In this document: positions 1-36,852 of the stretch, piece after piece | Layout of the letters: the number at the start of each line of letters is the position of its first letter | How positions within the stretch are numbered: position 1 is the first letter of the stretch | Virus record (IMG/VR): IMGVR_UViG_3300025151_000092 | Coordinates: 1 to 41,738 of that record | Strand: one strand, 5' to 3' | From: a virus | Length of the DNA stretch: 41,738 nucleotides | The notes under the pieces: model-generated | What the model saw: only the letters and a program-made list of their open reading frames with translations | The model's database searches: none | What the model was told of the DNA's origin: nothing | Program-made: the position numbers and the translations under genes

Positions 1-3000
1 ATCATCTGCATACCTCTTGTCAATAACAATAGTACCTGTTGAAGAACAAGGCATATCGTCTTTAGTTCCAGTATGTATAAGTATACCTGACTTGACTTTT
101 GCATCTAGCTTAGTAATAAACACTCTTGAGTATCTGTCATCCCATACCATTGAGATACCAAGACCTTCAAAGGCATTGTCTATTAAATCATTAGGCACGT
201 CTACACCTGCATTTTCAAACTGTTGTTTGATTCTAAAGGGAAGATTCTCTCTGAACCAGTTAGTCATTCCACTTGAGGATATATCCGCAATATTCTGACC
301 TGCAATCGTATAGACTCTACCTCTCTTGGCATCTGCCCAAAAATAGCCTGCCTGACAAGATACAAATGCTCTGTGTTGTGTACCTCCATAGCCTAGCTCA
401 GTTCTTGAAAGCTCTGTTGGTCTATTTTGGAACACCCCTCCAGTTCCTACAGTGTAATTATTTGTAGTAGCTTCTATGGTATCGTATGCATTAAATATTA
501 CTGCACCGTTTTCAAATAAACCTAGAATATTGTTAGAAGCTAAACTATGTAATGCGATAAGAGGACCATATGCACTACCAAAATCATTGTAATTATTAGC
601 TAAAAAGATTCTGTAGTTATCCAGGAAGTCTTGCTCACTATTATCAGGTAGAGAGTATATGGTTCTATCATATAAATCAAATCTACATTTGTACTCCTCT
701 GGGTCGTAGTTGACAGGTAATTGGTACCCACCATACTGTGCATTCTCATTGGAGTATACATTTGCATAGAAATAGTAATTATCTTCTCTAATAGTTACAT
801 TAGATTCTTGAGTCCACCTATAAAAATCAGACTGAGCAGGGTAGTACCCTTTGTTTTCCTCATTTTCTCCATAACGGAAGTCTAGATTTCTATTAGATTC
901 TACCATAAACCCTGGTATACCATAATAATACAAATAAAATTTAGAAGGTGGTACAATATATTTATTTTTCGATGAAAAATTATCAAACTCATACTCCGAT
1001 ATCATATTTGGTACATTACCAAAAGGACTCGTTTGGTCCTGCTCACTCATTCTATAGCTAAGGAAATACTTAGGATAGCCTATATTTCTAACTTCTCGAT
1101 AATCAAAAGGTAATAAATCAGACAATGAGTTATTACCATCAATCATAGGAGAAACAAAGAAAGAATACTTTCTCTTTAGATAAAATCTATTTAGGAATGT
1201 ATCTCCACCATAAACAATATCACATTCATTATCAGCAGATAGTTTACCACAAGAGCCTGTATATATAAATTTAATGTTGTTTATGTCTCCATATTGATTT
1301 GGTAAAAATAATTTTAAAGATACATATGGAGAAGCGATAGGCTTTTCAAGCTCACTAGTCTTGTTACCAAAATGAGTTGGGAATGCATCACTTGTCTTAA
1401 ATCTACTTTGGTCTGCAAATCTTTGAAATGGAGGAGGTGTTAAGTTAAAACTATAGTTAACTTCATCAGAAACTACACCTGATGTTTCAGGTTGTTGGAG
1501 TTCAGAGCCTAAACTTAAATAAACAGAGGACTCTCTATTGAAGTTGTTAATAGATATATTCTGACTATCAAATACTTCGTCAACAGTATATGTTCCACTC
1601 TTCAGGTAAAGTCTTTCTTTAAGGCCCCTGAGTTTATTACCTTCTAATCCATACAATCCGTCACTGTTACTATCATCTCTTTGGAATTGATTGTAGTGTC
1701 CCACTGAAGAATAATAATAGGCAAAGTTATATCTTTTACCTCTATTGTAGAAGATTTCTTCCCATTCTACTCTGAATCGTGTTGCTTGTTGGAATTGTTC
1801 TACAATGTAAGCCGCAGTGACTATACCTAAACCTATACTCCCTAACACCGAGCCTGCTGGAATAAATCCTCCAAACGTTTGACCTGCACCTATGAATGCT
1901 GTACCTATATTTAGGGCCACATCTAAAGCTACCTCTACACCTGCTAATATCTTAGCCAACCTATGTGCTCTAGGAGATAAGATAGTAAACACAGGGTGAT
2001 TTTCTACTTCTACGAATCCCCCTCTACTGTTTCCTCTAAAATGAGATTCAATATACATCTCAAACGGTAGGATAGGCTTATCAAAATGTGTATCAGGGGA
2101 GTGGAAACTAAATCTATTATTAGACAATGAATCAGCACCTTGTCTTCCTGTCTTAAAAGGATGTGGAATATAGTCCTTCCTATCTGCATCTGTGTAGATA
2201 AGCTGATTGTCAGATAAATCATTATAGGGGAAGTTACTGAAGAATTGAGACCTATCACTACCTATAGTCTGTTGAGGAGCCTCAATCATATCGTAAAGAA
2301 GTCCTTTTGCTATAATAGAACGGTCAAACCTAGTGTCACCTCTAAAATATTCATAATGAGTTATAGAATCTCTAAATTCTTGAGTAATGTAGTTATTACT
2401 TACTGCAATATCTAAGAAAGCTCTGATAACCTCAGTATCTATATGGAAACCAATAGGGAATATATTATTCTTTCTAAATGGTATAGCATCTTGGTCAAAC
2501 GCAGGAGATGTGTTAAAATCAGGAAACTTAAAGTGCCTAATTGGCTTACAACTAAAGTCAGCAGCAGCTGATAATACGTAAGGTTCTCCTGCAGCAGGTG
2601 CACCCCCTGTAAATACGTTTTGGAACTCAGTTCTAATATCAGGTGGGATGTCTGCCTCGGTAATCACCATGTTAGTACCATCATCCCTTGTTCTGCTATC
2701 ATATAAGAAGTTGTTGTTGGGGTACTTGATAGTAGACTCCCAATAAGCAAACTTACCTTTTTCGTGAGGAACAGGGTTGCAAACTATATCATCATATACC
2801 TCGAAAGGACATCTAGATTCGTACACACAAGTTTTTTGTATGTTTAAATCTAAGTCTTGTGCATTTTTAAGTATTAACTTATCTACAGGAGGGTAGTCTG
2901 CTTTGATAGCTACTGTACCCCAAGTACCAGAGGCATAAAAATAATTTCTTTGATGGTTCGTGGCATTGATTCTTTGGTCGCCAAGTCCCTCACCAGCAGC

Positions 3001-6000
3001 ATTATCTGTTGGGAAATGAGATTTGTTTTTTCTACCCGTGTGATATACAGAAACTAATGGAGCATCTACAGCAACAATAATATCGCTAACACCCACAAAT
3101 GGAGCTTGCAAGTTGCCACTAGAATCTTTTAATTTTATCTCTATTTTTCTCACACTACCTCCTCCCGCATCGATGGTAGGACGAGACCTTTCAAGCCCTA
3201 CTTTTGCTAAGAAAGAATTTTGGTCAATAAATTGGTGAGAGAGGGGAGAGTCTGGGTTATCACATTCATTCCAGTAAATATCTCCAGTTAATAAATCTTG
3301 TGCTTGTATTGTATGGCCATAGAAATTTCCACTATCTAATTTCACATCATTGAAGAGAGAAACTCTAACATAAGCAGGGTACCATAAACAATCTTTTTTC
3401 TTTTTGGCTTTTGGGCCGTCCTGCAAATTAGAAACAGACAGAACCAAAGTAGACTTTGTAGTGTCTATTGGAATTTTAAAGAATAACGCATTTGTATGTA
3501 CAAAGCTTACAGTATCAGCTCCTGTAACGTCATTTAAAAATTTATTTGTTATGGAAGATGTAGCCGTATCATAGCCTACTACTCTGTTTGTAACAAAAAA
3601 CCCTCCTTCAAATAAAGCTCTGTCATTGTAACAATTAGTTGTCTTTATTCTATTACCAATTTCAGGTATTATATGTCTAACACTTCCAGGTACAGCTGGG
3701 TTACCTCTTAACCAAGCGTACCAAGCATACGTACCTCCATCGCTATGTTCAAAGAATCCCCCATTAGCATCAGGTGCAGCAAGATTATTACCATTATCAT
3801 CATCTCTAGCTGTAAATGAATTAGCTGACATACCTTTAGCAAATCCACAAGGCAGTTCGTTAAATACAAGTTGAGATAACTGATTATACACATCATTAGG
3901 CTCCCTCTCAATTATAGGAAAACTGCTACTACTCTCCGTTAAGTCTTCATCTACTACTATCGATGGGTAGTCGGGGGACAAGTGGAATGTGTAAGGGTAT
4001 ATTGAATCAGATGCATAGTTTGTAGCTAATTGGTCTGGAGAGTCAGGTTCTGTGGAACCGAAGAATGGTCTTGCTCTTTCAAATACTAAATCAAACTTTC
4101 CATTATTGTTCTCACCAGAATTTTTATCTTTTCTATCTGATATCCAAAACTCGTAATCATCGAGTCTACCTGGATTTGAAGTTGGATTATCAAATTCTAT
4201 GGTATCAGCATCGTTAATGTTTTTAGGGTCTGCATTGTTATCAAACTCTAGAAACTGGTCCATCTCAGGCTTAGAAGGTCTTGAAATCTTATCACAACTA
4301 ACAGGAATCTCTTCTATTTCGGGTATACCATCTGCAAATCCTCTGAAATCTACTATCTCATCGTTCTTGATGATTGTACCACAATCTCCATCAAAGAGTT
4401 CTGTAGGGTCACAACATTCTATCTCTCCTTTGTGCACTCCAGTAGGACCTATGTAACTACTCTTAATGAAATAATCTAATATGGCATCTTCAACAGGACC
4501 GTTTTCAGGTAATGACTTAGATGCTATTACATCCTCTTGCCTATCGTTTATAAAAGAAAAGAAATCGGAGTATATGTATTCGTCCTGGTCTATCTCTATG
4601 GTTACTTCCGCAGGGGTAACAACACTTAAGTCTATAACTGCCTCGGTAGTACATAACCTTTCTACCAGCCTATATATTGTACTGAAATTTGCATCTGAAC
4701 AATTGCCTCCTAGAGGACCTTCGTTAGTGGCTGTATTATAAAATTGCCACTTATAAATTCTTGCTTCGTCTACACAACCCTTATTACCGTTTCTAAATAT
4801 GGAGTAGACATCATTAATCCAAGGTTTCTGCTGAACGGTATAAGGTAAATCCTGTTTACGTGTTGTATTGGCTATTTGATTTATTAATGCTGCAGGGTCA
4901 GCTTGGTGGTCGCTGTCAAAGTATAAATCATCATTTGTAGCTGCTCTAGGTATTAAAGGGTATATTGGAGTTTTGTATCCTTGATTAGTTACAAATCTAA
5001 TACCGAAAGGAACTACCTCGTCCCTCATGTAACCTTTAAAATTAGCCGTTCCCCTAGATGTAGAATACAGGCCTTCTTCTGACCGAGAAGTTCTCCACTC
5101 TGCAAAATGCCCCATGAAATTTACCATAGGTTGCAAATTAGGTGGCTCTTGTCCTTCTAAGTCAGAGAAAAATAAGGTGTTGTTTGCTTGTGCAACTGTC
5201 TTAGCTGTTTTGTAGTAAGGCATCTCCCTACTTAGCTCTCTAATATCTATATTCTCTAACTCTTGGCTACCTGAGTACAATAGTTCAGTAGTAGATGTAG
5301 GTAATATGTCTACTACAAAAGCATTTGCTTCTCCGCTAACACCATTAGTTTGGTATACTGCTACTTTGTAGTAGTCAAACTTCGGGTCTAAGTTACTTAC
5401 TTTTAATTTCAAAGATAGGTTAGTCAACGTATCTAACTCAAACTGCTGATATACCTCCCTGTTATTATCCTTTATTGATGCTGGACCAGAGGATGCTGTA
5501 TAACTATTTATTAGATTACCCCTAGCATCGCAGTACCCAGCAAAGAAAACATATTGACCATGTCTTGTTTTACCTCCAATGACAGTGCCTTCAACTTCGA
5601 TACAAAGTTTTTCACTGCTTGGTAGTATATTCATCTTGTCACAGTTCAAACATACTGTTCTATCTACTAACCCACAATCACAATTAGGGTCATAGTCTGG
5701 ACTAGAAGGGTCATCGCTACAAAAAACAGTTTTTGTAGTGTACTGTTCAGGTTTCGCAACTTCTACTCGTCTTCTAGGGTTAAGGTCATCTGTGAAGTAT
5801 AATACATCTCCGCACTTCTCTTGTTTAATTATAGATGATACAGGATAGTTAACATTAAAACCTAGGCACCCTGCACCCTCTGAACTTCCTTGACAAGGCT
5901 TGCTACCGTGGTCGCTTATCAAAGTAACATAAGTACATGTAGCAACCTGAGCGATGCTCTCTAAACCATTAGATAATACGGATTTAATATCACAGCCGCA

Positions 6001-6324
6001 CTCCTTTAGTGTGTCTGTAAAAGATATTTGTTTCTCTAAGTCCTCTATGAATCCTATCTCAGACTCTCTAGTTTCAGGATTAGTTAAAAAGAAGTATGTC
6101 CTCTCCCCTGTGGTGTCGTGTTGTATACCGATAACATGGAACCCATCTACAAATCTAGAACATAAGATATTACTCTCTTCGTTTTGAAGATTAATGGAAT
6201 CCCCGTCTTGTCCTTGAAAGTTCGCATTGAGTGCATGAATATACGAATTTTGGTCTAAAGACGTAACGTGGGTATCTTTGTTCATACCCTTTTTACCTAC
6301 TCCTAATTCTCTTTGCGGCTTCAT
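1..6324 (-). CDS. Giant tail 'muzzle'-like structural protein (C-terminus cut off by window edge)
   Basis: I translated this frame by hand from the ATG at 6324 to base 1 and met no stop, giving at least 2,108 residues. The ATG overlaps the stop of the upstream gene (TAATG). Residues 14-80 (MNKDTHVTSLDQNSYIHALN, then a QNEESN segment, a VIGIQ segment and FFLTNPETRESEIGF) look like the N-terminus of crAss-like tail tubular/muzzle proteins. Later motifs such as YFTDDLNPRRR and FKGYMRDEVVPFGIRF also fit that family. A Cys cluster (CDCG, CLNC) lies near residues 200-220. A Gly/Ala-rich hydrophobic stretch lies near residues 1455-1515. It follows three connector-type genes, as expected for a protein at the end of a short tail. 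I infer a virion tail role; the family match is from memory. It is long for the family, so extra domains or a fusion are possible. Confidence 0.75.
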   Translation of the reverse strand, partial: MKPQRELGVGKKGMNKDTHVTSLDQNSYIHALNANFQGQDGDSINLQNEESNILCSRFVDGFHVIGIQHDTTGERTYFFLTNPETRESEIGFIEDLEKQISFTDTLKECGCDIKSVLSNGLESIAQVATCTYVTLISDHGSKPCQGSSEGAGCLGFNVNYPVSSIIKQEKCGDVLYFTDDLNPRRRVEVAKPEQYTTKTVFCSDDPSSPDYDPNCDCGLVDRTVCLNCDKMNILPSSEKLCIEVEGTVIGGKTRHGQYVFFAGYCDARGNLINSYTASSGPASIKDNNREVYQQFELDTLTNLSLKLKVSNLDPKFDYYKVAVYQTNGVSGEANAFVVDILPTSTTELLYSGSQELENIDIRELSREMPYYKTAKTVAQANNTLFFSDLEGQEPPNLQPMVNFMGHFAEWRTSRSEEGLYSTSRGTANFKGYMRDEVVPFGIRFVTNQGYKTPIYPLIPRAATNDDLYFDSDHQADPAALINQIANTTRKQDLPYTVQQKPWINDVYSIFRNGNKGCVDEARIYKWQFYNTATNEGPLGGNCSDANFSTIYRLVERLCTTEAVIDLSVVTPAEVTIEIDQDEYIYSDFFSFINDRQEDVIASKSLPENGPVEDAILDYFIKSSYIGPTGVHKGEIECCDPTELFDGDCGTIIKNDEIVDFRGFADGIPEIEEIPVSCDKISRPSKPEMDQFLEFDNNADPKNINDADTIEFDNPTSNPGRLDDYEFWISDRKDKNSGENNNGKFDLVFERARPFFGSTEPDSPDQLATNYASDSIYPYTFHLSPDYPSIVVDEDLTESSSSFPIIEREPNDVYNQLSQLVFNELPCGFAKGMSANSFTARDDDNGNNLAAPDANGGFFEHSDGGTYAWYAWLRGNPAVPGSVRHIIPEIGNRIKTTNCYNDRALFEGGFFVTNRVVGYDTATSSITNKFLNDVTGADTVSFVHTNALFFKIPIDTTKSTLVLSVSNLQDGPKAKKKKDCLWYPAYVRVSLFNDVKLDSGNFYGHTIQAQDLLTGDIYWNECDNPDSPLSHQFIDQNSFLAKVGLERSRPTIDAGGGSVRKIEIKLKDSSGNLQAPFVGVSDIIVAVDAPLVSVYHTGRKNKSHFPTDNAAGEGLGDQRINATNHQRNYFYASGTWGTVAIKADYPPVDKLILKNAQDLDLNIQKTCVYESRCPFEVYDDIVCNPVPHEKGKFAYWESTIKYPNNNFLYDSRTRDDGTNMVITEADIPPDIRTEFQNVFTGGAPAAGEPYVLSAAADFSCKPIRHFKFPDFNTSPAFDQDAIPFRKNNIFPIGFHIDTEVIRAFLDIAVSNNYITQEFRDSITHYEYFRGDTRFDRSIIAKGLLYDMIEAPQQTIGSDRSQFFSNFPYNDLSDNQLIYTDADRKDYIPHPFKTGRQGADSLSNNRFSFHSPDTHFDKPILPFEMYIESHFRGNSRGGFVEVENHPVFTILSPRAHRLAKILAGVEVALDVALNIGTAFIGAGQTFGGFIPAGSVLGSIGLGIVTAAYIVEQFQQATRFRVEWEEIFYNRGKRYNFAYYYSSVGHYNQFQRDDSNSDGLYGLEGNKLRGLKERLYLKSGTYTVDEVFDSQNISINNFNRESSVYLSLGSELQQPETSGVVSDEVNYSFNLTPPPFQRFADQSRFKTSDAFPTHFGNKTSELEKPIASPYVSLKLFLPNQYGDINNIKFIYTGSCGKLSADNECDIVYGGDTFLNRFYLKRKYSFFVSPMIDGNNSLSDLLPFDYREVRNIGYPKYFLSYRMSEQDQTSPFGNVPNMISEYEFDNFSSKNKYIVPPSKFYLYYYGIPGFMVESNRNLDFRYGENEENKGYYPAQSDFYRWTQESNVTIREDNYYFYANVYSNENAQYGGYQLPVNYDPEEYKCRFDLYDRTIYSLPDNSEQDFLDNYRIFLANNYNDFGSAYGPLIALHSLASNNILGLFENGAVIFNAYDTIEATTNNYTVGTGGVFQNRPTELSRTELGYGGTQHRAFVSCQAGYFWADAKRGRVYTIAGQNIADISSSGMTNWFRENLPFRIKQQFENAGVDVPNDLIDNAFEGLGISMVWDDRYSRVFITKLDAKVKSGILIHTGTKDDMPCSSTGTIVIDKRYADD

Positions 6325-7738: not shown

Positions 7739-8440
7739 CTACTTTGCTCTCATACCAGGACCCATCTTCTGATTAGAATCTAAATCAGAATTTTCATCAG
7801 GAGGTATTGCTTTGTACGTGGTAGTTATATGCTTAACCACTTGGTCCTTTACCGTAGAAATATATTTGTTTGGTATGACAATATCAAAATCATATGGAGT
7901 TGCACAAGCATCTACCTTATTTCCACACTCAGTAAAAGATTCTGCCTCTAACTTGTCTGTGAACAAGGCATTAATTGATACAATTTCAGGGGTGCTACCT
8001 ACTACGTACAAATACCCATTGGCCAAATAGAAGTAACTAGTAGCGTTTTGGAATTTTCTCTTTTGCTGTGTTTTAAAATCAGCAAGGGTTCTTAATCTTT
8101 GATATTCAGTCTCACCTGTGATGTTGGAAACTGATATGATGATAGGGCCTATAGAAGAATTAAAGATGTCAGGTAACTTGCAAGTGGTCTTCATTATTTT
8201 GTCGCACTTTCTGAACTCTGCTATATCACACTTGTCAGCTCTTATTCTATGCATCTCTACACAAGTTACTTCTGTGAAGATAGAACTGTCTCTAAATACA
8301 TCTCTTAAAGGTCTTTGGGATAAAAGGTAGCTAGTATAATCTTTAGCTAAAGAGTAAATATACCTATCACTGACACGGTCATCCTTATTTATAGCCTGGA
8401 TAGAGTTACTTACGTCTGATATGAACTGATATATAGTCAT
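7739..8440 (-). CDS. crAss-like ring/tail-stabilisation protein, 233 aa
   Basis: The N-terminus (DDRVSDRYIYSLAKDYTSYLL) and the following layout (VTCVEM, several Cys, KLPDIFNSSIGPIIISV, then FYLANGYLYV) match my memory of the ring protein that attaches to the portal in crAss-like phages, often annotated as a tail stabilisation protein. It begins a short four-gene tail operon with its own promoter (8445-8476). The -7 box ends only five bases upstream of the ATG at 8440, so the mRNA may be leaderless. No other in-frame ATG lies close downstream, which supports this start. The C-terminus is polar and probably flexible. Confidence 0.6.
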   Translation of the reverse strand: MTIYQFISDVSNSIQAINKDDRVSDRYIYSLAKDYTSYLLSQRPLRDVFRDSSIFTEVTCVEMHRIRADKCDIAEFRKCDKIMKTTCKLPDIFNSSIGPIIISVSNITGETEYQRLRTLADFKTQQKRKFQNATSYFYLANGYLYVVGSTPEIVSINALFTDKLEAESFTECGNKVDACATPYDFDIVIPNKYISTVKDQVVKHITTTYKAIPPDENSDLDSNQKMGPGMRAK

Positions 8441-8444
8441 TCTT

Positions 8445-8476
8445 CTAATTTAATAAATATATATGATATAACCAAA
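8445..8476 (-). promoter_or_regulatory. Promoter of the tail-connector operon (likely leaderless transcript)
   Basis: On the minus strand TTTG (8476-8473), 20 bases and TAAATTAG (8452-8445) match the Bacteroidota form with one mismatch. The -33 region carries a partial copy of the 31-bp element (8456-8486). The start point would fall at or next to ATG 8440, leaving almost no leader. Confidence 0.65.
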
Positions 8477-8482
8477 TTTCTT

Positions 8483-8512
8483 ACAAAAACAAAGAGGGCT
8501 CCAAGAGCCCTC
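8483..8512 (-). terminator. Intrinsic terminator after the fibre block
   Basis: On the minus strand an 8-bp stem GAGGGCTC/GAGCCCTC with a TTG loop is followed by TTTGTTTTTG. It lies 34 bases after the fibre-tip stop codon at 8546. Its T tract overlaps the start of the promoter element of the next operon. Confidence 0.85.
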
Positions 8513-8545
8513 CTGTTATGGGGGAAAACCAACCAAAACCCCTCA

Positions 8546-12688: not shown

Positions 12689-13152
12689 TTCAATAGTTTA
12701 ATAGTCGTTACTAAGGCTCCAACCTGTAGGAAGTTAAAACCTAAAGATGTCATTCCGACTGACCTCCACCGATACCATTTTCTCACCGCCTTCTCTAGTT
12801 TGTCTTCAGTAACATCCGTATACTTTTTGAAACTCTTTTGTAAGTCCGTAGCAATTAATTTTAGAGAGTCTAGGTTTTCCAAAAGTGTTTCGTACTCCAT
12901 CACAAACATATCAATGTTCCCTACAAGAGCATTGTAGCTTATTGTGAGAGAGTCTTTTATTTCGTTCAACAAAACATTTTCTCTACCTATCTCAAGGAGT
13001 CTTTTATAGTCGTCAGCATAGAACATCACATACGTGGTGTCATCAGCTTCAAACCTAAAGACCTCCATTGTCTCCACTATATTCGGGGATTCCTGAGAGT
13101 ATGCTGTCCAGGGGAGTATTGCGAATAATAATAAGAGTAGAATCGGTTTCAT
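12685..13152 (-). CDS. Signal-peptide coiled-coil protein with C-terminal membrane segment (spanin-like candidate), 155 aa
   Basis: Residues 1-20 (MKPILLLLLFAILPWTAYSQ) form a signal peptide with a likely AYSQ cleavage site. The mature part has a long coiled coil (about residues 60-125). Near the C-terminus a hydrophobic segment (MTSLGFNFLQVGALVTTIKL) may be a membrane anchor. There is no lipobox Cys, unlike classical outer-membrane spanins. The first 98 bases overlap the 135-aa gene in another frame, the overlapping layout typical of Rz/Rz1 pairs. Together they could form a spanin-like unit that disrupts the outer membrane at lysis. An envelope structural or adsorption role is also possible. 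Confidence 0.45.
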   Translation of the reverse strand: MKPILLLLLFAILPWTAYSQESPNIVETMEVFRFEADDTTYVMFYADDYKRLLEIGRENVLLNEIKDSLTISYNALVGNIDMFVMEYETLLENLDSLKLIATDLQKSFKKYTDVTEDKLEKAVRKWYRWRSVGMTSLGFNFLQVGALVTTIKLLK

Positions 13153-13462
13153 AAATGTTTTCAGTTAGTAGGTTTTCAAAATTGGTTAATTCAGTATAAA
13201 TACTTATTTGCAGACTGTCCATTTTGGACTGACTGTTTTTTATGTCTTTGGTCATTTCAAGAAGAGCATCGAGCTCTTTCTCTACTTTCTTACGCTTGTT
13301 GATAATGTCTTGGTCTATGTAACTGTCTTTTGAGTTGCAACCCTTAGTAAACAGTATTCCTATCAAGATACATAGGATAGAAAGACGAAGGAGAAAGTCC
13401 AATATCTTGGCTCCTCCACGCTCTTCGAATTTACGTAAAATATTCTTAATATCCAAATTCAT
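13055..13462 (-). CDS. Membrane-anchored coiled-coil protein (i-spanin-like candidate), 135 aa
   Basis: A charged N-terminus of about 20 residues precedes one hydrophobic segment (residues 21-39, LDFLLRLSILCILIGILFTK). A long coiled coil follows, rich in Lys, Glu, Ile and Leu (residues 50-105). This matches the topology of an inner-membrane spanin with a periplasmic coiled coil. The last 98 bases overlap the next gene in a different frame. The segment LFTKGCNSKD could also be read as a degenerate lipoprotein signal, but the lipobox is poor. The start overlaps the stop of the 197-aa gene by one base. The assignment rests on topology and overlap, not on sequence similarity. Confidence 0.45.
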   Translation of the reverse strand: MNLDIKNILRKFEERGGAKILDFLLRLSILCILIGILFTKGCNSKDSYIDQDIINKRKKVEKELDALLEMTKDIKNSQSKMDSLQISIYTELTNFENLLTENIYETDSTLIIIRNTPLDSILSGIPEYSGDNGGL

Positions 13463-14055
13463 TACAATATGTTTTGTATCTGACTGATGACGTTCCTGAT
13501 TGCATCAAAATCCTCGTCATTTAGCGTTGCACCCATGTGAACGTCAACAGCCAAGAAGATGTAACAGAAATTGTTTTTATTGTGGATTTCCTTTACATGG
13601 AAGCAATGAGTTTCCCCTACTTTTTGCGTTACCAATAAAGGTCGAAGTATTCCCTTTTTATTCAATTCCTTTACACTTCTTTTAGTTTTACCATCTTGAT
13701 ATATTTCTTGTACCATATGTATGTACTCATTATCAAGAGTTTGTTTGTTAAATGTGTGAGTGAACTCTGTGGGGTTAATAATTGTTCCGTACAGGAGCCC
13801 CTCTGGTTTCACCATCGTACCTCCGTTAGATACGTGCACAAGGACTGCTTTATTAACATTAGCTCTGTTTTGTAACAATCTAGCTAACGTATCAAGGTGT
13901 AATTTTGTAGATACTACTTGACCAAAATCAGTTTCCTTCCTCCACCTTTTTGGTAGCACATATTTAAAGGCATCGAAGTTTGAGCTTACCACCCCTAGAA
14001 TTCCACCTACAAAAACACTCAAAAGCCCTATAATGGCTATCCATAATTCAATCAT
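13462..14055 (-). CDS. Membrane protein with GAF-like cytoplasmic domain, 197 aa
   Basis: An N-terminal membrane segment (residues 2-25, IELWIAIIGLLSVFVGGILG) is followed by a soluble domain with VNKAVLVHVSNGGTMVKPEG. This resembles the 'FHNGG' motif of a widespread family of phage proteins with one membrane helix and a GAF-like fold, usually found near lysis genes and without known function. Later strands (YIFLAVDVHMG) also fit such a fold. It lies directly upstream of the spanin-like pair. I infer a membrane-associated role, perhaps in lysis timing or host signalling; no enzymatic residues are visible. Confidence 0.45.
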   Translation of the reverse strand: MIELWIAIIGLLSVFVGGILGVVSSNFDAFKYVLPKRWRKETDFGQVVSTKLHLDTLARLLQNRANVNKAVLVHVSNGGTMVKPEGLLYGTIINPTEFTHTFNKQTLDNEYIHMVQEIYQDGKTKRSVKELNKKGILRPLLVTQKVGETHCFHVKEIHNKNNFCYIFLAVDVHMGATLNDEDFDAIRNVISQIQNIL

Positions 14056-25691: not shown

Positions 25692-25723
25692 CAAACTTAA
25701 AAATAATATTTAAATTAAACAAA
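25692..25723 (-). promoter_or_regulatory. Bacteroidota-type promoter in front of the scaffold/capsid genes
   Basis: Reading the minus strand, TTTG (25723-25720) is followed by 20 bases and then TAAGTTTG (25699-25692), a perfect match to the TAnnTTTG -7 box with the usual spacing. The expected start point lies about 13 bases before the ATG at 25673. It would give the scaffold and capsid genes extra transcription independent of portal. Confidence 0.75.
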
Positions 25724-25733
25724 TTTATTACAA
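25703..25733 (-). repeat. 31-bp promoter-associated repeat, copy 2
   Basis: This plus-strand block reads ATAATATTT, A, AATTAAACAAATTT, A, TTACAA. It differs from the copy at 28561-28591 in only two bases. It spans the -33 box and spacer of the promoter for the scaffold gene. Confidence 0.85.
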
Positions 25734-25798
25734 GGTATCTAACGTAGCACCTCGTAGGTAAAAAGTTTTACAAAGAATGTAAATCACAAAAAAGATAT

Positions 25799-25814
25799 TT
25801 TGTAAATTTACAAA
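25799..25814. promoter_or_regulatory. Perfect 16-bp palindrome TTTGTAAATTTACAAA (operator candidate)
   Basis: The palindrome lies 14 bases beyond the portal stop codon, in the 154-bp AT-rich gap before the scaffold gene. Related TTTACAA and TGTAAA words occur nearby (25768-25784) and in the divergent control region near 32.8 kb (32799-32815). It could be a repressor or activator site for the scaffold/capsid promoter, or part of an RNA hairpin after portal. Confidence 0.5.
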
Positions 25815-25827
25815 TTTTGTAATTTTT

Positions 25828-28530
25828 TTAATTTTTATTCATCCTAGCTATCTGAACTTGTTTGTTTGCTATACTTTCTCTAGTATCTAATTCCTGCCTT
25901 TTCAAGTTCATTTCTTGCTGTTTCATTAAATATGCTCTATCTGCTTCGATTTGTTTTTGACGAGTTTGTATTTCAAGTTGTCTTTGCTTGAAACGTCTGT
26001 CTAAATCGGAGGTGGACTGCTTTAATTGTTCTACCACTTTAGGTGTCTCTTCTTCATCTGGCATATCTTCATCTTTGATAAATCCTAGAGACAAGATAGT
26101 TTGTTTGTTAAGTGATATTTCTCCTTTGATTTGTTCTAGCTCAATCTTGTGTTGATGTTTAAGTTGCTCTAGTTCAAACTCATTAGCTTTTTCAATTTGC
26201 TGTTGCTGTTGCTGTTGTTTTTGCTGCATCTGTTGTTGCAACTCTGCTCTCTTTCTTCCTAGTCTAGCAATTTGTATTATCTTAGCTGTTGAGTCTGCAG
26301 ATATTACTTGTGCCATATCCTCCAAGTTCTTCATAATAGTGTTGTCTTGGAAATAGGTCTTCTTAAGAGTCTCAAGCTCTGTTCTCCTTTTAGAATTATT
26401 TTGAGTGTAGATTTTAAATCTTCTCATTGGAAGATGTGGGTCTAGCATAGTAACAAAATGCCTGGTAGAGTCACTATCAGTATAATTAACAGTTACATCC
26501 TTACCTTCCTTTTGTAACCACTGAGCAACATTTATATGCATCTCTGCAGTTCGTTGATGGAACTTGGAAAACTTATCAAACCACACCTCGGTCTGAGCGT
26601 ATGATGCATCCTGAGTTACTTTTATTCCTGTTGCAGTTTGCTGCTCAATAGGACCTGCCATCCTTTGAGGGTTCAATCCTAATTTTTCATACGCTCTGTT
26701 TTTTATACCTTGAGCATACTGCATTTTACCTAACATGGCAGCCGTAAGGTCCATGTTGACCATTTGGAAATTATTGAAAGCTGTTCCTCTAGCTTGAGAA
26801 GAGTCAACAGGAAGAAGACCAAGATTCCTAGTCACTTCCATCAACTTGCCAATTGCTTCGTCCCCTCCGTAGTCCTTCAAGAACTCAGGCATGTAAGCCA
26901 AATCCATTAGAAAGAACAATCCTAGCTCCTTAGACATATAGTCTCTAGCCATATTCATAGCCATAGAGTATTCTACTTGGTCTATCTCTACTCTTGAAAC
27001 AAGAGAAGTGTTTTCAAACATTCCATTTACTGGAAGTAAAGTGTGGAACATAGAACTCTCACCTCTTAATTGATACTCTAGAGGTTTTCCGTATAGGTAA
27101 AGATGGTCTTTTAAATCAGTGTTTTCCCTTAGAATCTTTACACCTTTCCATACTTCGGGGACATAATCCCACATTATAGTATTCTCTTTTGGGTTCTTTT
27201 GATTCTCTTCTAGAGACACTGTTCTCAACTGCTTAATCTCAAGTTCATTGATTAAGTCCTTTAAAAGTTCATCGGTTACCACCTCTGTAACTAATTGACC
27301 TGTGTCTGGTTTCTTGATAGTTAAAAACCCAATTCTTTTATAAGACACCCAATAGGCTTCTACAACTCTAATAAGGTCATACCTAGTATCGTAGTCGTTG
27401 AACAATAAATTTAGATTTTGGTTCTGATTAGGGAAGTGACCCCTGTATCCGAAATCCATTCCAGTTTGGTCTTGTAGGACTCCTAGATTTTCGTATGCGA
27501 TATAATCAGCATAAGGAACTCTTTTATTAGTACCACCAAAATTTTCTAGCCAAGACTGAGTGTCTTTTATATCAGCAGAAACAGAAACTTCTGCTTGCGT
27601 GTAATGTTTTGATTTTAGTAAGTCTCTTTTATCACTCTCACTTATCATGTGACCGTAGTTCGTCACTACTTGGTTAGGAGACAGATATTGTATTCTACCT
27701 ACATACTCACCAAGTTCAGGATATCTTTCTTCTTGAGTTACAGAAGTAAAAGTATTTAGAGGTGACCACCTTTCAGGTTGATAATAATCGTGACCTATTC
27801 TCCAATGCAAAAAGCATCTACCAGTAATAAGATAATCTCTAAACAAGTCTCTGTAGAGTTCATCCATATAGAATCTAGTCTCTCCCTCTTCGATTGTTTG
27901 CTCTGCCCATGAAATGTACTTCGGTTTCCATTGGGTATTCATGTAATCTTGTACTTCTTTTGGAATGTTTTGTTGTTTGAACTTTCGTATCTCTTGTAGA
28001 TAGTTTTGCTTCTGCTCTTCATTCTCAAAAGTCTGATTAGCTGGGTCTACACCCATAGCTGCTAACTTGAGATTTATTTCTGCTTCAACAGCCTTCCCTA
28101 CTTTAGCCCATAGCAGGTCTTTCTTCTTTCTTAAATACTCGTTAGTAGATAATGGGTCATTAGCATACACAATAGTTGGATTGGGCTTCTTTATGTACTC
28201 ACCAATTAAAGTATTTATAATAGGTTCTACGAACCCGTAATGCTGTAAATCTTCTGCTAAACTAGCTTGTGAGCGTAACATATCTACCTCAGATAAAAAG
28301 GCAGAGGTGTTCGTCATATCACTATAAGTGTAGCTACCTTCAACTATTCTGTAAGCATCTTCGAATCTTCTTCTAGAAACATTTAGTTGTCGAATACCAA
28401 TAGTTTCTAAGGTGTCCATACAGTCTCTAAACCAGGCTTTATTCTTCTTTTTGTCAGGAAGAGCTTGGGCAGGGAGCCTCATAGTATCCCCCAAAAAAGG
28501 TGCATCCTTAAGATTTACGTCAAAAAACAT
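25828..28530 (-). CDS. Portal protein, 900 aa
   Basis: The gene lies directly after the terminase large subunit, the usual place for portal, and its length fits the large portals of crAss-like phages (about 800-900 residues). It has long helical regions and a central region with clusters of aromatic residues (YRDLFRDYLITGRCFLHWRI, residues about 225-245). The C-terminal 180 residues form a Gln-rich coiled coil (QQMQQKQQQQQQQIEKANEF and similar), as expected for the barrel or crown end pointing into the capsid. A promoter at 28550-28581 puts the start at ATG 28530 with a leader of about 13 bases. A palindrome-containing AT-rich gap follows the gene. Confidence 0.75.
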   Translation of the reverse strand: MFFDVNLKDAPFLGDTMRLPAQALPDKKKNKAWFRDCMDTLETIGIRQLNVSRRRFEDAYRIVEGSYTYSDMTNTSAFLSEVDMLRSQASLAEDLQHYGFVEPIINTLIGEYIKKPNPTIVYANDPLSTNEYLRKKKDLLWAKVGKAVEAEINLKLAAMGVDPANQTFENEEQKQNYLQEIRKFKQQNIPKEVQDYMNTQWKPKYISWAEQTIEEGETRFYMDELYRDLFRDYLITGRCFLHWRIGHDYYQPERWSPLNTFTSVTQEERYPELGEYVGRIQYLSPNQVVTNYGHMISESDKRDLLKSKHYTQAEVSVSADIKDTQSWLENFGGTNKRVPYADYIAYENLGVLQDQTGMDFGYRGHFPNQNQNLNLLFNDYDTRYDLIRVVEAYWVSYKRIGFLTIKKPDTGQLVTEVVTDELLKDLINELEIKQLRTVSLEENQKNPKENTIMWDYVPEVWKGVKILRENTDLKDHLYLYGKPLEYQLRGESSMFHTLLPVNGMFENTSLVSRVEIDQVEYSMAMNMARDYMSKELGLFFLMDLAYMPEFLKDYGGDEAIGKLMEVTRNLGLLPVDSSQARGTAFNNFQMVNMDLTAAMLGKMQYAQGIKNRAYEKLGLNPQRMAGPIEQQTATGIKVTQDASYAQTEVWFDKFSKFHQRTAEMHINVAQWLQKEGKDVTVNYTDSDSTRHFVTMLDPHLPMRRFKIYTQNNSKRRTELETLKKTYFQDNTIMKNLEDMAQVISADSTAKIIQIARLGRKRAELQQQMQQKQQQQQQQIEKANEFELEQLKHQHKIELEQIKGEISLNKQTILSLGFIKDEDMPDEEETPKVVEQLKQSTSDLDRRFKQRQLEIQTRQKQIEADRAYLMKQQEMNLKRQELDTRESIANKQVQIARMNKN

Positions 28531-28549
28531 ATGATAATTTAATGTCTAG

Positions 28550-28581
28550 CGAATATATGCATAATATTTTAATTAAACAAA
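28550..28581 (-). promoter_or_regulatory. Bacteroidota-type promoter for portal
   Basis: On the minus strand TTTG (28581-28578), a 20-base spacer and TATATTCG (28557-28550) match the TTTG-N20-TAnnTTTG form with one mismatch. The start point would lie about 13 bases before the portal ATG. The element sits between the terminase stop codon and portal. Confidence 0.65.
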
Positions 28582-28591
28582 TTTGTTACAA
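28561..28591 (-). repeat. 31-bp promoter-associated repeat, copy 1
   Basis: The plus-strand block reads ATAATATTT, T, AATTAAACAAATTT, G, TTACAA and directly abuts the stop codon of the terminase gene (28592-28594). It matches the copy at 25703-25733 in 29 of 31 bases. A weaker copy lies at 8456-8486. Confidence 0.85.
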
Positions 28592-31925: not shown

Positions 31926-32322
31926 TTTTCATTCCTTTAGGATTAAATCTCTTTCTAAAAAACCATATGTTTTTCACTTTATTTTCTATGGCTCTCTTAA
32001 TCAAGGAATCTACCTTGTCAATCTTGCCATTTACAATATACAAACGATTGTTGACATCTGCAAGGCTTTTGTTTTCTTTTTTTTCAATGGACTTTTTTGT
32101 GTTTTCTAATTTTCGTCTGATGTTGTGAAGGGAAGATACTGTATGGTATAGGTTACCTAACTTGGGTATCTTGAATACTACTTCATCCGAATTAGATATT
32201 TTATCCATTGTTTTGTCAAGGAAATAAGTGTAAAGAGCTTTAGCTGCCTCTCTGTCACCACCCTGCTTTTGATATTCATCTAAAACATCTTCTAGGAAGT
32301 ATATTTTATCTTTATATTCCAT
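31918..32322 (-). CDS. Coiled-coil hypothetical protein, 134 aa
   Basis: Mostly helical and charged (FLEDVLDEYQKQGGDREAAK, then NIRRKLENTKKSIEKKENKS), with a basic C-terminus (NIWFFRKRFNPKGMKNG). It overlaps the winged-helix gene by 11 bases and the zinc-ribbon gene by eight bases. The middle could dimerise as a coiled coil. No family assignment. Confidence 0.4.
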   Translation of the reverse strand: MEYKDKIYFLEDVLDEYQKQGGDREAAKALYTYFLDKTMDKISNSDEVVFKIPKLGNLYHTVSSLHNIRRKLENTKKSIEKKENKSLADVNNRLYIVNGKIDKVDSLIKRAIENKVKNIWFFRKRFNPKGMKNG

Positions 32323-32677
32323 TGAATTTCATGATGAAAGCTACGTTATGCTCTGAATCTAATGCTGACTTAAGATGTGAAAGGTCAGTATTGAATACTT
32401 TTTTACCTCTGTTGTTTTTATCTATTAATCCTTTCTTTTTTAATCTAGAAAGCATTGTAGCAACATTTTGCTCTGTATTTACACCTATACCAGATGAAAT
32501 AACTTTATTTTTAAATTTCTTATCATTCATGTCATACAATAAACACAAAAGTAAGATATCCATGTCTCTTTTAGTTAAAGATGTAACAGAAACAGAATAT
32601 ATCTCTAAGACCTTCTTAATAAGGTCAATTTTATCTGTATATTGTATGTCAAAAGGAAGTGCTGTGTATTTAGACAT
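32312..32677 (-). CDS. Winged helix-turn-helix protein, first gene of the virion operon, 121 aa
   Basis: Residues 35-100 read as a MarR-type winged helix: LTKRDMDILLLCLLYDM, a helix-turn-helix with NKVISSGIGVNTEQNVATML, then SRLKKKGLIDKNNRGKKVF, where the last part forms the wing. Such proteins at the head of an operon are often transcription regulators, but a helix-turn-helix is also found in small terminase subunits. It starts about 77 bases downstream of the start point expected for the promoter at 32761-32792. I infer DNA binding. It may regulate the late genes or take part in packaging. Confidence 0.55.
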   Translation of the reverse strand: MSKYTALPFDIQYTDKIDLIKKVLEIYSVSVTSLTKRDMDILLLCLLYDMNDKKFKNKVISSGIGVNTEQNVATMLSRLKKKGLIDKNNRGKKVFNTDLSHLKSALDSEHNVAFIMKFNGI

Positions 32678-32760
32678 ATTATATTATTTACTCACCCTAG
32701 AACCCCTCTCACCAAACCCCCTGTAGTCCCCCTTTCCTCTCTCCCCTTGTTTGGACATTG

Positions 32761-32792
32761 CAAACATAGTAAATAAAATTGACAATGTCAAG
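32761..32792 (-). promoter_or_regulatory. Leftward promoter of the virion operon
   Basis: On the minus strand CTTG (32792-32789) is followed by 20 bases and TATGTTTG (32768-32761), a full match to the TAnnTTTG box with standard spacing. The -33 region also reads TTGACA and lies inside a 13-bp palindrome. The leader to the winged-helix gene would be about 77 bases. Confidence 0.7.
32779..32791. promoter_or_regulatory. TTGACA-A-TGTCAA palindrome over the leftward -33 box
   Basis: A perfect 13-bp inverted repeat with one central base covers the -33 element of the leftward promoter. A protein bound here would block that promoter, so it is a candidate operator. Confidence 0.5.
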
Positions 32793-32798
32793 GGTTTT

Positions 32799-32815
32799 TG
32801 TAAAAAAAATTTACA
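32799..32815. promoter_or_regulatory. TGTAAA-N5-TTTACA inverted repeat (operator candidate)
   Basis: Six-base arms separated by five A residues lie between the two divergent promoters. The arms match those of the 16-bp palindrome at 25799-25814, so the same regulator could act at both places. Confidence 0.4.
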
Positions 32816-32828
32816 GGTAAAAAAAATA

Positions 32829-32862
32829 TTGTAAATTACTTGTATATGTCAGATATATTTTG
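32829..32862 (+). promoter_or_regulatory. Rightward promoter candidate for the recA operon
   Basis: TTG at 32829-32831 and TATATTTT at 32854-32861 (seven of eight bases of TAnnTTTG) are spaced 22 bases apart, a little long. The expected start point lies about 17 bases before the ATG at 32886. The region is the only gap that can supply transcription to the first right-arm genes. Confidence 0.45.
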
Positions 32863-32885
32863 TAGTTTCACGCAAAACCATATTT

Positions 32886-36810: not shown

Positions 36811-36842
36811 TTGTCAATAATTTGGATAATTGAATAATTTTT
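36810..36842 (+). promoter_or_regulatory. Weak internal promoter candidate
   Basis: ATTG (36810-36813), a 21-base spacer and TAATTTTT (36835-36842) are a partial match to the Bacteroidota promoter form. It lies in the only gap between 33.1 and 38.2 kb and could supply the genes from 36853 onward. Low confidence because both boxes are imperfect. Confidence 0.3.
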
Positions 36843-36852
36843 ACTATATTAC

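Follow-up and report, generated by a model that had tools for sequence, protein, structure and literature searches.

Putative late promoters with an upstream TTGTAA word in the virion operon of a crAss-like phage

The virion operon and the copies of the repeat

The window, i.e. the whole stretch of DNA analyzed here, is a 41.7-kb viral record from a crAss-like phage. Its terminase, portal, and capsid matched PHROG head-and-packaging families; TerL, portal, and capsid are related to those of crass-like phages, and the gene order is collinear. The closest annotated phages were csAssE-Sib, Cellulophaga phi17:2/phi4:1, and Lbo-JY46 (~30% identity). Virion genes occupy the minus strand from 32677 downwards, and replication-type genes the plus strand from 32886 upwards. 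The relatives compared were 15 incomplete IMG/VR contigs with terminase identities of 83–95% (G001–G015, two of them ~90 kb long), and genes in the window and relatives were simple ORF calls. Stop-codon recoding was considered for the ORF-poor region 1–6323 and found to be unneeded, as one open frame of a giant gene runs off the end there. Rfam and tRNA searches of the window gave no match.

An earlier note on this DNA had described two near-identical 31-bp blocks before the portal and scaffold/capsid genes and a third, weaker copy before the tail-connector gene, each with TTTG followed 20 bases on by a promoter-like box. All of this was reproduced. The minus-strand blocks 28591–28561 (TTGTAACAAATTTGTTTAATTAAAATATTAT) and 25733–25703 (TTGTAATAAATTTGTTTAATTTAAATATTAT) are identical at 29 of 31 bases, the copy at 8486–8456(−) matches either block at 23/31, and exactly 20 bases separate TTTG from the box TATATTCG (portal), TAAGTTTG (scaffold), or TAAATTAG (tail connector). 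Family matches and position confirmed the genes that follow: the portal (PHROG 6547, E = 1.4e-91) after 28561–28591, a gene in scaffold position with no family match and then a major-capsid-type virion protein after 25703–25733, and a virion structural protein (PHROG 9863) after 8456–8486. The search for further copies proposed in the note revealed a fourth at 13467–13437(−), missed before, which has the same score as the third (23/31) and lies on a TAATG stop/start junction, together with two weaker plus-strand relatives at 36811(+) (22/31) and 32829(+) (20/31).

28550–28591, minus strand: putative portal promoter, right after the TerL stop; TTGTAA 28586–28591, −33 TTTG 28578–28581, 20-nt spacer, −7 TATATTCG 28550–28557
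25692–25733, minus strand: putative scaffold/capsid promoter; TTGTAA 25728–25733, TTTG 25720–25723, −7 TAAGTTTG 25692–25699
8445–8486, minus strand: putative tail-connector promoter; TTGTAA 8481–8486, TTTG 8473–8476, −7 TAAATTAG 8445–8452, ATG 8440
13426–13467, minus strand: fourth copy, TTGTAATGAATTTG-N20-TAAATTCG, at the TAATG junction of genes 13462–14055 and 13055–13462 (membrane, lysis-like proteins)
36811–36852, plus strand: weaker relative, TTGTCAATAATTTGGATA...TATATTAC, immediately before gene 36853, syntenic in relatives
32829–32870, plus strand: weak relative before the recombinase operon, TTGTAAATTACTTG-N20-TAGTTTCA

The matches of the portal and scaffold blocks and of the third copy are beyond chance. 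The best 31-mer pair reached 24–25 in 25 order-2 simulated windows, ≤25 in 1000 simulations of intergenic DNA, and ≤28 in 300 simulations at 91% A+T; other pairs with 28–29 matches in the window were only coding repeats (9.9–10.1 kb and 16.5 kb). The DNA flanking the two blocks showed no match between copies, and a search of the annotated phages for DNA-level relatives of the region found none. A weight matrix built from the portal, scaffold, and tail-connector sites recovered all six copies in the window, with 37–50 bits for the four minus-strand and 22.7–24.0 bits for the two plus-strand sites versus a best score of 17.7 in 20 simulated windows; only 13467–13437(−), 36811(+), and 32829(+) are independent of the training.

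The following features bear on the further claim that the repeat subdivides the virion operon.

8488–8517, minus strand: terminator-like hairpin with T run, adjoining the tail-connector promoter
25735–25827, minus strand: stable stem-loop region rich in A+T (z −3.7), located upstream of the scaffold promoter
32761–32792, minus strand: CTTG-N20-TATGTTTG, putative promoter heading the virion operon; the fixed position of the word is not occupied by TTGTAA

Subdivision was borne out at the tail connector, where the promoter abuts the terminator-like hairpin, and is plausible at the scaffold with its stem-loop, but not between TerL and portal, where no terminator was seen. Because the portal promoter also follows immediately after the TerL stop, it probably adds to read-through. 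From the ATG at 8440, the predicted tail-connector transcript would be nearly leaderless.

In the divergent virion and recombinase promoters (32761–32870), both spacers open with CTTGnnnnTGTCA (TTGACATTGTCA, TTGTATATGTCA). Similar words occur in relatives, and the site may be that of a shared regulator. The same gap (32678–32885) contains GGGGGACTAYAGGGGG in a G-rich leader (32717–32732, minus strand), which is present in 15/15 relatives; in the window (minimum at 32746), in G007, and in G012, it lies no more than ~20 bp from the point where cumulative GC skew is lowest. This part of the terminase-operon leader is a candidate replication origin with a possible G-quadruplex.

Promoter architecture and conservation in relatives

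The copies are better described as a promoter class, TTGTAA-N2-AATTTG-N20-TAnnTTnn, than as a 31-bp repeat. The class combines a Bacteroidota −33/−7 core (TTTG-N20-TAnnTTnn) with the word TTGTAA at a fixed distance (about −43 to −38). The −33 TTTG (or TTG) is present at all four minus-strand copies in the window, and the spacing to the −7 box is 20 at every late site (about 19–21 expected for a Bacteroidota promoter). Only the scaffold copy has a full TAnnTTTG box (TAAGTTTG); the portal, the tail connector, and the 13467 site (TAAATTCG) have TAnnTT only. In four genomes, TTGTAA-N4-TTTG occurred 17 times versus a mean of 2.5 for 24 other gaps tested. TTGTAA as a free-standing operator was rejected, as the word showed no general intergenic enrichment (rank 226 among 6-mers) and only its fixed spacing to TTTG matters; E. 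coli-type sigma70 promoters occurred at a frequency near the shuffled level. Sites of the class precede the portal, scaffold/capsid, and tail-connector genes, the lysis-like cluster, a late gene of 1021 aa, and an isolated small gene of holin-like type.

The promoter recognized by the Bacteroidota primary sigma factor (sigma-ABfr; −33 TTTG/−7 TAnnTTTG, PMC6847099) shares TTTG, the ~20-nt spacer, the TAnnTT box, and the nearby start codon. Here, in contrast, an invariant TTGTAA stands ten bases upstream of TTTG, and the 3' end of the −7 box differs from TTTG at 11 of the 14 late sites.

At the portal, where TTGTAA directly follows the TerL stop codon, TTGTAA and ATTTG are invariant in all 15 relatives, the spacer drifts, and the −7 box keeps TA..TT. 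Among 11 sequences of six lineages, the invariant columns were 6/6 for TTGTAA, 5/5 for ATTTG, 4/20 for the spacer, and 9/57 for the preceding end of TerL. The tail-connector site kept TTGTAAnAAATTTG in all four genomes reaching it. At the scaffold site, the window's close clade has TTGTAA; every more distant relative has TTGTT or ATGTT there, still with the 20-nt spacer before a TA..TT box. The promoter motif is absent from a sixteenth contig (26% identity). Comparison of late-gene upstream regions, as the note had suggested, showed that related genomes carry copies before the same genes as well; where relatives share the gene order, the similarity persists at portal and tail connector and in part only at the scaffold. 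From these comparisons, the promoter core is judged to be under selection at each place.

The note had offered selection for an additional factor or recent duplication. If the two blocks owed their likeness chiefly to a recent event, either a short duplication or a gene conversion from portal to scaffold, little selection would act beyond the −33 and −7 boxes. The clade-local features fit such an event: scaffold TTGTAA and the spacer AAATATTAT common to both copies are restricted to the window's clade. Over 31 bases, portal and scaffold agree at 29 positions in the window, 26–27 in its close clade, and 15–23 elsewhere (spacer: 12/13, 10–11/13, and 5–8/13, respectively). However, TTGTAA is invariant at the portal in every relative and recurs at other late sites with unrelated spacers, and the flanks outside the block are unmatched, so that copying is insufficient for the core and unlikely as the main explanation. 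Duplication or conversion of the scaffold copy may nevertheless have contributed to the long, clade-local spacer match. Conservation does extend past the −33 and −7 boxes, as the note had stated, in the form of TTGTAA; the 31-bp span as the selected unit was not supported, since the match in its spacer is clade-local.

A non-promoter origin of the similarity (tandem stop, RNA processing, or coding constraint) appears scarcely credible. The portal TAATTGTAA does form a second in-frame stop, and the 13467 copy overlaps coding sequence, for which reason its conservation is weaker evidence; the scaffold and tail-connector copies, however, contain neither stop codons nor coding sequence, and −33/−7 geometry shortly before a start codon is common to every copy. 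As far as sequence can tell, the copies are very probably promoters of one conserved, extended late class that varies the Bacteroidota promoter. In the literature searched, which covered few subscription papers, no earlier description of the TTGTAA label or of a crAss-like late-promoter motif was found.

Cellulophaga phi17:2, csAssE-Sib, and Leptolyngbya phage Lbo-JY46 have the same order TerL-portal-scaffold-capsid and −7-like boxes in the same two gaps, but, unlike the window, no TTGTAA at portal or scaffold; TTGTAAnnnATTTG sites numbered one in phi17:2, at the operon head, and none in csAssE-Sib and Lbo-JY46. The promoter positions thus look old and the TTGTAA word lineage-specific.

Late and early promoters and the wider occurrence of the word

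Late sites over three genomes contain TGTAA in 12/14 and the full TAnnTTTG box in 3/14 cases. The typical early promoter in G007 and G012 is TTTGGATA...TATCTTTG, without the upstream word; this sample is small and was picked by a pattern favouring good −7 boxes, so that it does not allow a number-for-number comparison with the late boxes. In a scan blind to the upstream word, TTGT or GTAA stood at the fixed place in all eight sites inside virion operons, in 0/3 early sites, and in one of two divergent-region sites. Late sites outside the training set were found at G012 39364(−), before the 1021-aa gene, and at G007 57331(−), before a lone 54-aa membrane protein. The latter ORF, holin-like and running from 57331 downwards on the minus strand under its TTGTAA late promoter, opposes the early genes. 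Two plus-strand (replication-side) promoters carry a partial word; TTGTAA is thus not strictly late.

In IMG/VR, the strict pattern gave 53 intergenic sites with a nearby ORF versus 4 and 6 for two permuted words; its sites came mostly from unrelated phages whose filler is A-rich. For a third permuted word, ATGTTA, the count was 32, largely owing to a repeated ATGTTAAAAATTTG promoter of jumbo phages. These phages (227–373 kb; L311, L321, L322, L335, L356) have many copies of ATGTTAAAAATTTG-N20-TAnnTTTG-CAnACGTAA, in which another word takes the same upstream position in the Bacteroidota promoter. At four plus-strand positions of phi17:2 (NC_021798.1; 109340, 119598, 136626, 141682; L404–L406), −7 boxes have a poor −33 box and, at some distance upstream, TGTTAA-like words, which may represent a further promoter word specific to a phage. 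Promoters of the Bacteroidota type (TTTG/TAnnTTTG) occur in Lbo-JY46 (L398), whose recorded host, a cyanobacterium (Leptolyngbya), may be wrong. Among 199 Flavobacteriaceae genomes, the strict pattern matched seven times versus 0 and 1 for permuted words, and TTGT stood at the place in 0/34 generic promoters of bacterial and 0/48 of viral loci; TTGTAA was accordingly rejected as a common host promoter component. This distribution fits phage-specific words read by different factors, but also a loosely defined host-read element.

A serious rival to the favoured reading, though less likely, is that the host polymerase itself reads TTGTAA, via its alpha C-terminal domain (UP-like) or an extended −33 sigma contact and with no phage factor; the word would then merely strengthen weak −7 promoters, with timing coming from elsewhere. 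The place just upstream of −33 is where UP elements, the sites of the host alpha C-terminal domain, sit, and the enrichment in unrelated viral contigs, the slight one in Flavobacteriaceae, and the partial word at the two replication-side promoters also agree with it. On the other hand, the word is rare in hosts and missing from the generic promoters, and strong early promoters of the same phages do without it. Its invariant G is unlike the A-tract subsites of UP elements, and among the promoters of these phages the word is confined to a single class. The promoters of F. johnsoniae have nothing more than A+T-rich turns at −18 and −28 (PMC6847099).

It is very unlikely that the boxes are used by a multisubunit RNA polymerase of the phage itself. 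The −7 boxes deviate from the host consensus, and crass-like phages carry a giant polymerase whose promoters are little known; the sites, however, keep host −33/−7 geometry with a spacing of 20. In cultured crAss-like phages, moreover, transcription of early genes is attributed to the virion polymerase and that of late genes to the host RNA polymerase (PMC10136315, PMC8375218).

Candidate reader and proposed mechanism

A phage sigma factor as reader of the word was rejected, with Sigma70_r4 not matched in G000, G007, and G012. A different candidate heads the operon.

32312–32677, minus strand: gene that opens the virion operon; its 121-aa winged-helix product is a candidate late regulator

The gene holds this place in all 15 relatives, homologs lie at the same place in phi17:2 and Lbo-JY46, and the promoter that precedes it has no TTGTAA in the fixed position. 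The recognition-helix region (QNV-T-M-SRLKKK) is nearly invariant in 11 aligned sequences. Pfam winged-helix matches were weak and below curated cut-offs, and a PDB sequence search gave no sequence relation. The AlphaFold model has a confident core (mean pLDDT 79), and Foldseek returned mostly winged-helix regulators, the best being the T4 MotA activation domain (1bja, probability 1.00, E 0.027), with no match at E < 0.001. The candidate link to TTGTAA is drawn from synteny and the modelled fold; the protein could also be a repressor or a packaging protein.

In the reading we favour, with slightly less than even confidence, these late promoters would be used by host RNA polymerase, and their weak −7 box (nearly invariant in Flavobacterium johnsoniae; PMC6847099) would be compensated by a factor reading TTGTAA, most likely the phage winged-helix protein. 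Host RNA polymerase with its primary sigma factor would transcribe the late class, aided late in infection by this factor, bound one helical turn upstream of −33. Made from a wordless promoter, the winged-helix protein could then switch on the internal promoters, the head of the operon coming first.

T4 middle promoters, which depend on sigma appropriation by MotA/AsiA (PMC2988021), are likewise a class defined by an upstream word and transcribed by the host polymerase, and the structural likeness of the candidate is limited to the activation domain of MotA. In T4, however, the activator box replaces the −35 element and lies at −30, whereas here the −33 TTTG is kept (invariant at the portal) and the word lies at about −43; T4 middle promoters need an excellent −10 (PMC2988021), whereas the −7 box here is weak. 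More tentatively, this lineage may encode its own late activator, a winged-helix protein that reads TTGTAA at −43 and recruits host Bacteroidota polymerase to promoters with weak −7 boxes, in a MotA-like manner but of independent descent. Parallel words may exist in other phages of the phylum, such as ATGTTAAAAATTTG in the jumbo phages and TGTTAA in phi17:2.

The promoter type itself is ordinary, and TTGTAA is its apparent address label for late genes. The class bears on the switch by which crAss-like phages pass from an early RNA polymerase of their own to the host polymerase for late genes. Given a short, defined late-promoter class and a named candidate reader, this switch could be examined with a single reporter and a single protein, and late transcription units of uncultured relatives can be searched for by their pattern.
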